This document shows positions 2,574 to 60,082 of a DNA stretch of 64,000 nt, in pieces. Source of the DNA: Burkholderiales bacterium (GTDB taxonomy: Bacteria; Pseudomonadota; Gammaproteobacteria; Burkholderiales; Burkholderiaceae_C); contig JACPOK010000031.1 in assembly GCA_016191525.1 (NCBI GenBank), forward strand, positions 1-64,000, in the 5' to 3' direction. The notes under the pieces are model-generated. The model saw nothing but the letters and a program-made list of their open reading frames with translations, was not told the origin of the DNA and made no database searches. The position numbers and the translations under genes were made by a program. Position 1 is the first letter of the stretch. Each line of letters opens with the position of its first letter.

Positions 2574-3605
2574 TCAGGTGCTGCCGCGCACCACCAGCGA
2601 ATAGCCCACGTCCACAGTGGCCCGGTCCACCGGCTGGCCGCGCATCAGCGCCAGCAGCATGCCCGCGGCGGCACTGCCGATCTCGGCGCGCGGTGTGCGC
2701 ACCGTGGTCAGGGGCGGCTGCATCTGGTCGCTGCCCGTCAGGTCGTTGAAGCCGGCTACCGCGATGCGCTGCGGCACGGGAATCTGCAGCCGCAGCGCGG
2801 CCAGCAGCGCGCCCTGGGCCAGGTCGTCGTTGCAGAAGAACACGGCGTCGATGGCCGGGGTCTGGCCGATGATCTGCTCGAACATGCGCCCGCCCAGCGC
2901 CAGCGAGGAGGGCGCCGGGTTCAGCCACTCCAGGGTGGGGTCGTACAGGCCCGCTTCGCCCAGGGCGGCGCGCCAGCCTTCCAGCCGCTGCAGCGTGCGC
3001 GGGTCCAGCTGGGCGGCGGCGAAGGCGATGCGCCTGCGGCCGCGGGAGATCAGGTGGCGCGTCATGGCGGCGCCCGCATCGGCCTGCGACAGGCCCACGC
3101 TATAGACGCCGGGCGTGCCGCTGGTTTCCATCAGGTGAACGCAGGGCACGCCGCTTTGCGCGATCAGCGCGCGGGTGGGCTCGCTGCGCTCCATACCGGT
3201 CACCAGCATGCCGGCGGGGCGGTGCAGCAACTGCTCGCGCAGCAGCGCTTCTTCCTCGATGGGGTCGTAGTGCGTGATGCCTATCAGCGCCTGGTAGCCG
3301 GCCGGGCGCAGCGTGCGCTGCACCGCCTCCAGCAGTTCCACGAACAGCGCGTTCGACAGCATCGGGATCAGCACGGCGACATGGCTGCTGTAGCTGGAAG
3401 CCAGGGCGCGGGCGGCTGGGTCGGGCACGTAGCCCAGCTTGGCGGCCGCTGCCTGCACGCGCGCCACCAGCTCCGGATCGACCGCGCGTTCGCCGCGCAG
3501 CGCGCGCGACACGGTGATGGGGCTGACCCCGGCGGCTTGCGCCACGTCGGCCAGTGTGACTCGGCCGGTGGCACGGGAGCGGGAGGCGGGGACCTGGACG
3601 GGCAT
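2574..3605 (-). CDS. LacI-family transcriptional regulator (likely gluconate regulator)
   Basis: N-terminal LacI HTH VTLADVAQAAGVSPITVSRALRGE plus periplasmic-binding-like domain; divergent from gluconokinase. Confidence 0.9.
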   Translation of the reverse strand: MPVQVPASRSRATGRVTLADVAQAAGVSPITVSRALRGERAVDPELVARVQAAAAKLGYVPDPAARALASSYSSHVAVLIPMLSNALFVELLEAVQRTLRPAGYQALIGITHYDPIEEEALLREQLLHRPAGMLVTGMERSEPTRALIAQSGVPCVHLMETSGTPGVYSVGLSQADAGAAMTRHLISRGRRRIAFAAAQLDPRTLQRLEGWRAALGEAGLYDPTLEWLNPAPSSLALGGRMFEQIIGQTPAIDAVFFCNDDLAQGALLAALRLQIPVPQRIAVAGFNDLTGSDQMQPPLTTVRTPRAEIGSAAAGMLLALMRGQPVDRATVDVGYSLVVRGST

Positions 3606-9055: not shown

Positions 9056-9690
9056 ACGACACGAAGCGGTTCACCGCACTGCAGGTGATGGCCGACGCGC
9101 CGGTGATCCCGGTGATCGTGCTGTCCGACGTGGCCCACGCCGTGCCGCTGGCGCGTGCGCTGGTGGCCGGCGGCATTCGCATGCTGGAAGTCACGCTGCG
9201 CACGCCTGTGGCGCTGGCCTGCATCGAGAAGATCGCGCGCGACGTGCCCGAAGCCGTGGTCGGCGCGGGCACGGTCCGCAGCGCCGCCGACGCGCAAGCG
9301 GCGGCACTGGCCGGCGCGCGCTTCGCGGTGAGCCCCGGCTACACCCACAGCGTGGGCCAGGCCTGCCACGACCTGGGCTTGCCGCTGCTGCCCGGCGTTG
9401 CCACCGGCGCCGAGATCATGGCGGCGCAGGAAGACGGCTACACCCAGCTGAAGTTCTTTCCCGCCATGCAGGCCGGCGGGCCGGCCATGCTCAAGGCCTG
9501 GCAGGGCCCCTTCGGTGACGTGAAGTTCTGCCCGACCGGCGGCGTCACCGCGGCCAACGCGCGCGAACTGCTGGCGCTGGACAACGTGGTCTGCGTGGGC
9601 GGCTCGTGGCTGACACCGGCCGACGCCGTCGCCCAGGGCGACTGGGCGCGCATCACCCAGCTGGCGCTGCAGGCCAAAAATCTCCAATAG
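9046..9690 (+). CDS. eda: 2-dehydro-3-deoxy-phosphogluconate (KDPG) aldolase
   Basis: VVGAGTVRS..., [19 protein letters not shown]; start overlaps edd stop by 10 bp. Confidence 0.95.
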
Positions 9691-9702
9691 AATCTGCCGC
9701 TA

Positions 9703-9746
9703 GAGCGCACGGGACGTGCGAGGAGTGCTATCAAATGAATAGCGTT
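9703..9746 (+). repeat. Interspersed palindromic repeat, copy E
   Basis: gcgcacgggacgtgcgaggagtgctatcaaatgaatagc; same two-hairpin layout as copies A-C; contains the ATG at 9735. Confidence 0.5.
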
Positions 9747-10598
9747 TCGGTGGCGGTGAAGATCATGGCGCGCGGGGCGGCCGCGGGGCTGGCGTTGCTG
9801 CTTGCCTGCTCCGCCGTTGCCGGCGAGGGCACCTTGCCCGCCGGCGCGCGTGTGCTGCACGACCTCGCCTACGGTGCCGATCCGCTGCAGCGTTTTGATG
9901 TCTACCTGCCGGCGCGCACGGCGCAGGCGCCGGTGCTGTTCATGGTGCATGGCGGTGCCTGGGCCTTTGGCGACAAGGCCGGCCGTGGCGTGGTGCAGAA
10001 CAAGGCGGCGCACTGGCTGGCGCTGGGCTATGCATTCATCTCCGTCAACTACCGCATGCTGCCGCAGGCGCAGCCGCTGGAGCAGGCTGCCGACGTGGCG
10101 CGCGCCCTGGCCGCGGCGCAGCAGCAGGCGCCGTCCTGGGGAGCGGACCCGCAGCGCTTTGTGCTGATGGGGCACTCGGCCGGGGCGCACCTGGTGGCGC
10201 TGCTCAACGCCGCGCCGGCGCTGGCGCAGCAGCAGGGCGCCAGGCCCTGGCTTGGCGCCGTCAGCCTCGACAGCGCCGCGCTGGACGTCACCAAAATAAT
10301 GCAGGAGCGCCACGTGCGCGTGTATGACCGCGCCTTCGGCACCGACGCTGCCTACTGGCAGGCCGTCTCGCCCTTGCACGTGCTTACCCGCGACGCGAAG
10401 CCGTGGCTCTCCATCTGCTCCACCCAGCGCAGCGACTCCTGCCCGCAGTCGGTGGCGATGGAGCGCAAGGCGTCCTCGCTGGGGTTGCGCGCGGCCGTCC
10501 TGGAGCAGGACCTGTCCCATGCCGACATCAGCCGGCGGCTGGGCGAACCGGGCCCTTACACCGACGCGGTGACGCGCTGGATCGCCGCGCTGCCCTAA
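9735..10598 (+). CDS. Alpha/beta hydrolase (esterase/lipase-like), exported
   Basis: Signal peptide; FMVHGGAWAFGDKA, GHSAGAHLVAL nucleophile elbow. Confidence 0.85.
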   Translation: MNSVSVAVKIMARGAAAGLALLLACSAVAGEGTLPAGARVLHDLAYGADPLQRFDVYLPARTAQAPVLFMVHGGAWAFGDKAGRGVVQNKAAHWLALGYAFISVNYRMLPQAQPLEQAADVARALAAAQQQAPSWGADPQRFVLMGHSAGAHLVALLNAAPALAQQQGARPWLGAVSLDSAALDVTKIMQERHVRVYDRAFGTDAAYWQAVSPLHVLTRDAKPWLSICSTQRSDSCPQSVAMERKASSLGLRAAVLEQDLSHADISRRLGEPGPYTDAVTRWIAALP

Positions 10599-26440: not shown

Positions 26441-26462
26441 GCCTGTTTCTCCGGAGGAAAAA

Positions 26463-26515
26463 CGGCTGCAAGGCGCATGCAGCCTGCGTAGGCAGCTATT
26501 GATTTAGTAGCAAAC
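26463..26515 (+). repeat. Interspersed palindromic repeat, copy A
   Basis: gcgcatgcagcctgcgtaggcagctattgatttagtagcaaa; strongly similar to copy B. Confidence 0.65.
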
Positions 26516-26537
26516 CCATTGCGTCTAGACTGGACCC

Positions 26538-33146: not shown

Positions 33147-33250
33147 CTATTTCAACAAAACTTGAAATATGGAGGGGTGGGGTTGCCCGGGCGGGGGAAA
33201 AAAAGGCTTCCCGGGGCCCATGAGTCGGAAATCCGCAACGCAGCATTGGT

Positions 33251-33284
33251 GCGGCTTGCGGGCAATTTTCGGCCCGCAAGCCGC
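33251..33284. terminator. Strong stem-loop downstream of the peptide-binding protein (no clear U-tract)
   Basis: 13-bp perfect arms gcggcttgcgggc / gcccgcaagccgc, 8-nt loop. Confidence 0.5.
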
Positions 33285-35912: not shown

Positions 35913-36395
35913 ATGGATAAATTCTTGCTGCAACAGCAGGTGGTGAAACGGCTCGCCGAAGACCTGCTGCAAGCCGAACAGGCAGTGCGGGCGGCTCATG
36001 AAACGGCGACCCACGAAGAAAACGTCGCCGAAAACAAATACGACACATTGGGACTTGAAGCCGCCTACCTGGCCACCGGCCAGGTTCGGCGCGCGGAAGC
36101 GATCCGCAAGGCGCTGGCCAATTGGCGCCAGTTCCGCCCGCGTCCCTACGACGCCAGCAAAGGCATACAGCTCGGCGCGCTGGTCTGCCTGATCGATTCC
36201 GGCGACAGGCAGCAACACTTCTTTCTCGGCCCGGATGGGGGCAGCATGAAGTTGGTCATCGGCACCCAGCTCGTTCAGGTCATCAGCAGCGAAGCCCCTT
36301 TGGGAAGCGCCATGCTGGGCAAATGCGAGGGTGATGAGGTGTCGATACAGGTCGCTCCAGTCCGACAGCAGTTTGAGGTGCTGCGGGTTCAGTGA
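35913..36395 (+). CDS. GreA/GreB-family C-terminal domain protein
   Basis: NKYDTLGLEAAYLATGQVRRAEAIRKAL coiled coil; C-terminal LGSAMLGKCEGDEVSIQV. Confidence 0.8.
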   Translation: MDKFLLQQQVVKRLAEDLLQAEQAVRAAHETATHEENVAENKYDTLGLEAAYLATGQVRRAEAIRKALANWRQFRPRPYDASKGIQLGALVCLIDSGDRQQHFFLGPDGGSMKLVIGTQLVQVISSEAPLGSAMLGKCEGDEVSIQVAPVRQQFEVLRVQ

Positions 36396-36455
36396 AAGCT
36401 GCCCCGAAGCGCACCCAGCCTGCGTGAGCCGCTATTGATTTGGTAGCGGCTGCCA
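36396..36455 (+). repeat. Interspersed palindromic repeat, copy B
   Basis: gcgcacccagcctgcgtgagccgctattgatttggtagcggc; overlaps the stop codon (36432-36434) of the RND-OMF gene. Confidence 0.65.
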
Positions 36456-47892: not shown

Positions 47893-48785
47893 GCCTGTTG
47901 TCCTTGCAGTGTGCGGGCGATGGCCCACAGGCCGCGCCAGGTGGCTTCGGAGCCCACGCGGCGCGAGGTGATGCCGCGCTCGGCCAGCGCCAGTTCGTAG
48001 CGCAGCGTCAATGCGCTGGAGCCGATGATCACCACCTGCCGGCCGGCATCCAGCTGCTGCGAGCGCAGTTCCTCGCCGATCGCCAGGCCCGACAGGTAGC
48101 TGGGCAGCGCGGCTTCGGGCATGCGGCCAAAGAGGGCCAGCGTGCGCGCGCTGAAGGCCGCGTGCAGCAGGTTGGCGCTGCGGCGGGCATGGTCCAGGCC
48201 CTGGCGGAAGGCACCTTCGTGCAGCTCGCCGTCGTCCTGCGGCATGGTGCGGCCCAGGATGGAGTGCTGGCGCAGCAGGGCGTAGAACTCGCCCGTCATG
48301 AAGGTGGAAAAGCGTTCGATGCGCCCGCCCGCGGCGCGCACCCACTTGCTGTGCGTGCCGGGCAGCACGAACAGGCCGCCCTCCAGCCCCAGCAGGTCCA
48401 TCGCGCCGAACACCTGCGTTTCCTCGCCGCGCATGACGTCGGGCACGCCGTGGTCTTCGCAGCTCATGCCGGGCACGATGGCGATGCGATCCAGTTCCAC
48501 CCAGGCCAGTTGCGAGGCGATTTCCGCGAAGCCCGCGGGACAGGGGCAGTAGGGCGCTTCCAGCCAGCCCTGGCGGCTGCCGACCATCCCGCACAAGAGG
48601 TAAAAAGTGCCTGCGGAGCGCATCCACTGTGCGTTGGCAGCTATCAAAAGAGGAGCAAATCCGCCGGGCTCGACGGTCAGGATGCCGCGCGCGGAGGCGT
48701 ATTCCTCGAGCACTTTGCCGTCTTCGCCCAGCAGCGCGGCGCGCAGCGACGAGGTACCCCAGTCCACCGCGACCAGCGGCCTCAC
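47889..48785 (-). CDS. dgoK: 2-dehydro-3-deoxygalactonokinase
   Basis: VAVDWGTSSLRAALL, CGMVGSRQGWLEAPYCPCPA, DVMRGEETQVFGA, LPGTHSKWV. Confidence 0.92.
   Translation of the reverse strand: MRPLVAVDWGTSSLRAALLGEDGKVLEEYASARGILTVEPGGFAPLLIAANAQWMRSAGTFYLLCGMVGSRQGWLEAPYCPCPAGFAEIASQLAWVELDRIAIVPGMSCEDHGVPDVMRGEETQVFGAMDLLGLEGGLFVLPGTHSKWVRAAGGRIERFSTFMTGEFYALLRQHSILGRTMPQDDGELHEGAFRQGLDHARRSANLLHAAFSARTLALFGRMPEAALPSYLSGLAIGEELRSQQLDAGRQVVIIGSSALTLRYELALAERGITSRRVGSEATWRGLWAIARTLQGQQA
48604..48660 (-). repeat. Interspersed palindromic repeat, copy C, inside dgoK and translated in frame
   Basis: Minus strand tttgctcctcttttgatagctgccaacgcacagtggatgcgctccgcaggcacttttt = FAPLLIAANAQWMRSAGTFY. 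Plus strand gcgcatccactgtgcgttggcagctatcaaaagaggagcaaa matches copy A. Confidence 0.6.
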
Positions 48786-59459: not shown

Positions 59460-60082
59460 GCCTGCTGCATCTCACCCGAGAGCATGACGCGCCGGCCCGT
59501 GCTGGAAGGCACGGCGGCCAGCAGCGAACGGGCCACTTTCGCGGCCTCGATCGAGCGGTAGTTGGCGGGGATCAGCGGCCTGAGCATTTGCGAGACCTTC
59601 AGCGCCAGGCCTTCGCCCGGGCGCACCGGCTGGCCGAGCGCTTCGCGGTTGCCGTTCAGGAATGAAGGCCGCGCGATCACCACCGTGCCGAAGCCCAGCG
59701 TGACCAGCGCATCTTCGAGCTCGCCCTTGACGCGGTTGTAGAAAACCGGCGAGCGCACGGCGGCGCCCATGGCGCTGACTGCTCCTGCTTTTGTAGCGCC
59801 CTGTGCACGCGTGGTGCGGGCTACAGCCAGATTCGCTTCGTAATCCACGGCGCGGAAAGCTTCCTGGCTGCCGGCCACCTTGATGGTGGTTCCCAGCGCC
59901 AGGTAGACCTCATCCACCGCGGGCAGCGGCGGCAAGGCCCTGAAATCGACGACATGCTGCGTGAGCTTGGCGTGCTTCAGGGCAAGTTCGCGGCGGCCCA
60001 GCGTGTGGACTGCCGCGACGGAATCATCGGCCAAAAGTCCTTGAAGGATTTCCCGGCCCACGAGACCCGTAGCCCCCGCCAC
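59456..60082 (-). CDS. NAD(P)-binding Rossmann oxidoreductase (HTATIP2/NmrA-like)
   Basis: [25 protein letters not shown]...[29 protein letters not shown]. Start unclear: GTG 60082 or ATG 60202; either overlaps the helicase end. Confidence 0.8.
59776..59828 (-). repeat. Possible interspersed repeat, copy D, inside the oxidoreductase CDS
   Basis: tgctcctgcttttgtagcgccctgtgcacgcgtggtgcgggctacagcc resembles copy C reverse complement; more degenerate. Confidence 0.35.

Follow-up and report, generated by a model that had tools for sequence, protein, structure and literature searches.

The dgoK gene of a Ramlibacter genome (Comamonadaceae; hereafter G000) raises the question of how a dispersed DNA repeat can come to be translated as part of a conserved enzyme without lengthening it. 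The gene lies in a 64,000-nucleotide stretch, here called the window, and its product is a full DGOK family protein (Pfam PF05035, 331 bits, E 5.6e-99). The initial annotation had proposed that an interspersed palindromic repeat is read in frame inside dgoK at 48604-48660, just before the motif CGMVGSRQGW, and that it matches an intergenic repeat at 26463-26515. Both proposals were borne out: a covariance model (R1) built from 49 other copies, with the dgoK copy left out, recovered the segment in a whole-genome search (66.1 bits, E 6.2e-10), as did a profile HMM derived from further G000 copies, again excluding that of dgoK (E 7.9e-16, within a small search set). The copy is slightly wider than proposed, its ends falling within ten bases of those first given, and the intergenic stretch was observed to belong to the same family (Table 1).

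Table 1. Position of dgoK and of the repeat copies detected in the window.
Feature	Position	Strand	Evidence
dgoK (2-keto-3-deoxygalactonokinase), repeat host, 298 aa	47889..48785	-	ORF list, Pfam, AlphaFold2
65-bp repeat copy in dgoK, frame +0, read as GFAPLLIAANAQWMRSAGTFYL	48598..48662	-	R1 66.1 bits; HMM 55.1 bits
Intergenic copy (comparison copy of the initial annotation)	26453..26517	-	R1 73.6 bits; HMM 62.2 bits
Copy at gene 3' end, stop codon inside repeat (3p+22)	36389..36453	-	HMM 41.4 bits
Weak repeat-like stretch, in frame within ORF resembling NAD(P)-binding protein	59775..59839	+	HMM 24.9 bits
Weak copy between genes	9685..9749	-	HMM 25.3 bits

The peptide GFAPLLIAANAQWMRSAGTFYL directly precedes LCGMVGSRQGW in DgoK. 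In a confident AlphaFold2 model of the protein (mean pLDDT 91) the repeat-encoded residues 42-63 form helices 43-50 and 52-55, a loop and the start of a strand (61-66), and the three residues of the segment that are invariant in the DgoK family, F43, W54 and L63, are retained. Alignment with 29 same-genus orthologs revealed no 22-residue gap at the segment, and the solved DgoK structure 3t69 likewise aligns across it without an insertion of repeat length. Nearly all of these orthologs lack the repeat DNA; relative to the repeat-free ones, the net length change of DgoK is zero, the amino acids at the segment differ, and the score of the site with a position matrix is about -40 to -80 as against +63 in G000. 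The suggestion that the segment fills the length of an ordinary DgoK, and hence represents a repeat that has replaced native sequence or been exapted in an enzyme gene, is supported by these comparisons, a new function of the peptide being conjectural. Two outcomes had been named that would have refuted it, few copies in the genome and repeat-free DgoK proteins with the same amino acids at this place, and neither occurred.

The covariance-model search found at least 150 copies in G000 (all matches among those listed), and 153 distinct copies were examined together with their surrounding DNA. Their consensus, CCGGTTGCTATAAATTTGATAGCTGCCCACGCACAGCTGGTGCGCTCTGCAGGCCTTTTTCCCTC, consists of a core, GCTAY-N7-RTAGC, followed by a GC-rich right part and a run of T. 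This inverted repeat is the only near-universal palindromic part of the family, so that the term "palindromic" used in the initial annotation holds for the core but not for the remainder, which folds weakly: the mean folding z of the copies is -0.8, only weakly above shuffles, and that of the dgoK copy (+0.5) is not unusual. No Rfam RNA family matched at its gathering score within the window. About 106 of the 153 copies lie outside genes, and for the majority of these a gene has its 3' end either in the repeat itself or at most 60 bp from it; in the modal overlaps the stop codon of the host gene is the TGA or TAG of the TTTGATAGC of the repeat. Since many copies at gene 3' ends supply the stop codon in this way, many proteins have a C-terminal tail encoded by the repeat (e.g. 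those at L006, L048, L062 and L098, with the stop within TTTGATAGC). The family is a lineage-specific chromosomal repeat of about 65 bp that normally resides at gene 3' ends. A role as a strong hairpin or terminator was considered and not adopted: in spite of the 3'-end placement it is unproven, because folding barely exceeds that of shuffled sequences.

Within the window, the copy at 9685..9749 is probably decayed, while the stretch at 59775..59839 may be either a decayed copy or a chance resemblance; the ORF around it has a G034 ortholog of similar sequence (G034 being the closest relative of the source genome by DgoK) and no Pfam match at 1e-8. A short stretch at 33236-33270 gave a partial match (16.4 bits) to the repeat's right half.

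DgoK is one of about 40 in-gene cases in this genome. Forty-two of the 153 copies were observed within ORFs that have a coding appearance to either side of the copy and remain open throughout it; as the gene assignment relied on codon usage and Pfam, a few of these may be wrong. A Pfam family was found for 39 of the 40 ORFs scanned, with about 22 copies inside the matched domain. The hosts include murD, truB, miaA, purK, pgi, hemD and an Hsp70, and the families in which the copy often lies inside the domain are IPPT (miaA), PGI, HemD, PurK ATP-grasp, TruB_N, Hsp70, ECH_2, CobU, DctM and aminopeptidase. In-frame copies were also noted within or beside linker regions at L154 and L193, where the host proteins are a 2-oxoacid dehydrogenase E2 and a lipoyl-bearing dihydrolipoamide dehydrogenase.

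The in-gene copies are almost confined to two reading frames (+0 in 22, -0 in 18, others in 2), which encode Ala-rich, helix-like peptides, xIAAHAQLxRSAGxFSS or EGKxAAERTxxAxAAIKxIA. Given that four frames are commonly open in copies outside coding sequences (fractions of 0.79, 0.81, 0.49 and 0.80), the use of just two of them (P about 2e-12) is not explained by the avoidance of stop codons alone. At third codon positions the in-gene copies are no worse a fit to the consensus than non-coding copies, whereas at second positions their fit is poorer, which suggests that the DNA motif is maintained and that the protein pulls some positions back.

How these copies entered their host genes was addressed by comparing 20 further genes with their counterparts in G034 and in two other relatives, G002 and G020, the length statistics being taken from the relatives other than G034. 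The net length change observed was close to zero (median +1 residue, range -6 to +12 in 36 comparisons), and the value expected from a clean insertion, about +22 residues, was never seen in the ortholog comparisons. There was no change at all in dgoK, purK (against its closest relatives), murD, folM, Hsp70 and rlmD, nor in thiL against its two closest relatives; miaA differed by a few residues and truB by +1 to +5. In murD, where G034 is without the repeat, the tract extends from GGTTGC, common to the native sequence, into the native GGCGAATTGAGCCTGTTT with zero length change. With the position matrix, repeat-free orthologs scored -25 to -80 and the G000 sites about +60 to +74. Based on these alignments, it is supported that in-gene copies replace native codons rather than lengthen the protein, although the exchange is not always length-exact, since the pgi and gnat loops exceed those of relatives by 8-12 residues.

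No ortholog set supports a simple insertion. A more elaborate course, in which a small mobile repeat of the RPE, REP or MITE kind inserts in the ordinary way and later deletions bring the gene back to its length, could yield the same outcome as replacement and would be in keeping with a dispersed family bearing small inverted repeats, with the longer loops just mentioned and with the in-frame REP and RPE insertions described for other bacteria. It is nevertheless unlikely, considering that the net change is zero in many rigid proteins (the six listed first above) and never near +22, and that frames are intact even though 65 bp does not correspond to a whole number of codons. No recombinase or transposase tied to the repeat was detected, a point against the favoured model set out below: there is a single Y1_Tnp gene, with no adjoining copy in its 3.3-kb locus, and mobilisation by a RAYT was rejected for this reason. 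This lone Y1_Tnp/RAYT-like gene (L405, G000:C8:211337-211630) stands beside a glutamate synthase-like gene.

A second line of evidence comes from G034, of which 0.8 of 4.5 Mb was sampled. Repeat-like DNA was observed there, in a form of its own, at 16 of the 20 orthologous in-gene sites checked. The G000 covariance model gave only a handful of matches in G034, the best being the copy in dgoK, which is decayed and closer to the G000 type. A profile search seeded by the in-gene copies uncovered a distinct G034 subfamily with 54 full-length copies in 795 kb, whose consensus, CGGGTCGCTACTGATTTGATAGCAACCCAGGCCCATTCGACGGGGGCTACAGGCCGATTTCACTC, differs from CCGGTTGCTATAAATTTGATAGCTGCCCACGCACAGCTGGTGCGCTCTGCAGGCCTTTTTCCCTC. 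At the shared sites the two parts of the repeat behave differently: identity over the left 25 bases is 0.725 between orthologs (16 pairs) and 0.606 between copies within G000, while over the right 40 bases it is 0.569 between orthologs (16 pairs) and 0.658 within G000. As the G034 copies are more varied (0.509 within that genome), the effect shows most plainly in the comparison with G000. Thus the left part follows ancestry and the right part is genome-typical, a pattern that, as far as sequence comparison can tell, is the signature of concerted evolution.

These dialects could also be understood if the motif were not copied in but arose at each site through point mutations favoured by a genome-wide drive, like DNA uptake sequences, a process from which species "dialects" are expected. 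Length-neutral placement, genome-specific forms at shared sites, the conservation of synonymous positions, the presence of copies at gene ends and the partial version at the same codons of Polaromonas dgoK (see below) are all compatible with it. However, known uptake signals are about 10-30 bp, a length that 65 bp far exceeds, and uptake sequences, at about 10-12 bp, are far more numerous than the G000 repeat, the copies of which are in the hundreds and not in the thousands. In addition, repeat-free relatives do not approach the motif more closely than background does, and length did change at some sites. We consider evolution in place quite improbable; both it and insertion followed by deletion remain possible. 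As for a chance resemblance of native GC-rich helix codons to the repeat, the nearness of the repeat peptide to the native one in purK and murD cannot save it, and it is ruled out by the profile and covariance scores (E 6e-10 for dgoK across the whole genome), by the matrix scores that separate repeat-free orthologs from G000 and by the existence of about 40 cases.

The best explanation, held with moderate confidence, is that copies overwrite chromosomal DNA by recombination or template switching and are later homogenised, with selection acting on the protein. According to this model, about 40 copies would have ended inside genes in place of a stretch of roughly their own length, each being written over its target by recombination with another copy, through gene conversion or template switching at short homologies, and the same process would later homogenise the copies within a genome. 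Selection at the protein level would keep only tolerable events and restore key residues (F43 and W54 in DgoK), and the survivors would be those in the two frames whose peptides suit helices and loops. The recombination step and its direction, the homogenisation and the selection are inferred; no event was observed in progress, in the form of two strains of which one has a copy at a given site and the other lacks it. Homology-guided targeting in general found no support, since the native sites of purK and dgoK looked enriched for repeat-likeness but, across 20 genes, native sites in G002 and G020 did not on average exceed other places in this respect (mean rank 0.54, p 0.21). More broadly, it can be put forward as a tentative hypothesis that the family propagates by writing itself over chromosomal DNA, coding sequence included, of the same length as the repeat, that copies are continually homogenised in each genome even in essential enzymes, and that the proteins of sister species consequently carry dialects of the same repeat-encoded peptide.

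Repeats within coding sequences are known as such, and several systems share traits with the one described here. The Rickettsia palindromic elements (RPE), of about 150 bp, have been described as insertions (Ogata 2000/2002, reviewed in PMC10969869). Like them, the G000 repeat is a dispersed family translated as part of many genes that are unrelated to one another and seem to be functional, each such family having its own conserved peptide; in G000 this holds for 42 of 153 copies, which use two frames and are surrounded by Pfam domains. Unlike them, it replaces native codons, with related genomes having different versions at the same sites: the added residues that an RPE leaves as an indel against orthologs are missing (median +1; 0 in dgoK and purK), and the element is not palindromic as a whole beyond GCTAY-N7-RTAGC. 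The GTAG and CGTC families of REPs are palindromes of 20-40 bp, often dimers, and the GTAG types are tied to RAYT transposases (PMC3733652). They resemble the present family as short repeats near gene ends with some copies inside coding regions, and differ from it in that the G000 repeat has a short inverted repeat only, forms no dimers that were seen and has no RAYT gene flanked by copies.

In the same bacterial family, a motif pair of Polaromonas naphthalenivorans CJ2, ATAGCT(N)22CAAAAG, occurs in 125 copies, 18 of them in genes (PMC5217627). ATAGCT is common to both repeats and both are mostly intergenic or near gene ends, whereas the CAAAAG half is not matched in the G000 or the G034 consensus; the frame and ortholog effects of the pair were not studied in that work, and the kinship of the two is at present a lead. 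The beta-proteobacterial repeat element BRE, of about 90 bp and 69% GC in Bordetella, forms tandem arrays with at most 29 copies and, as the G000 repeat, has hosts among the Comamonadaceae and some copies wholly within coding sequences (PMC3110155). Neisseriaceae DNA uptake sequences show genome-specific dialects (PMC3630211), and the G000 repeat agrees with them in having genome-specific versions of a frequent motif, located in genes without a change in length, the differing consensus sequences and the 16 shared in-gene sites of G000 and G034 being the equivalent of such dialects; no link to uptake was shown for it. To our knowledge, length-neutral overwriting with genome dialects at orthologous codons is new, no account of it having been found in a search that did not cover subscription journals, and the shared sites with their own versions hint at a spreading mode undescribed for known gene-invading repeats.

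In-frame selfish repeats have so far come chiefly from Rickettsia and from a small number of genomes rich in REPs, and have been read as tolerated insertions; here, in a betaproteobacterium outside those groups, dozens of conserved enzymes have codons replaced by the repeat with hardly any change in length. Should this be confirmed, exchange between non-allelic 65-bp repeats would be a steady source of protein change and would offer a natural, testable system for the spread of short repeats without the marks of a transposase. The data also carry a warning that peptides common to unrelated proteins can stem from repeats.

Genera besides Ramlibacter were hardly sampled. The core motif was found 64 times in G034, compared with 3 in shuffles, and 20 times in Comamonadaceae loci fetched by DgoK, compared with 0.8; since the near-palindrome is counted on both strands, these 20 matches correspond to about 10 sites. 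In other Ramlibacter stretches sampled, the core motif was absent or at background. At the dgoK codons themselves, a clear copy was identified in the Ramlibacter isolate ACE_PRO44 (L339), and three Polaromonas show part of the motif (TTTGCTACTGTTTTTGAAGCA...GGGCTGCAGGCACTTTTT). L339 is not adjacent to the gene of the window in the DgoK tree, indicating that the site was either hit more than once or lost in between, and the tree cannot tell repeated gain from loss. The Comamonadaceae sites are mostly from Polaromonas and Xenophilus and lie close to the 3' end of the gene that follows dgoK. Seven loci (L326, L327, L330, L336, L367, L375 and L382), which apart from L367 belong to these two genera, have at that 3' end, near position 3000, a copy of the core motif with a right part of its own.
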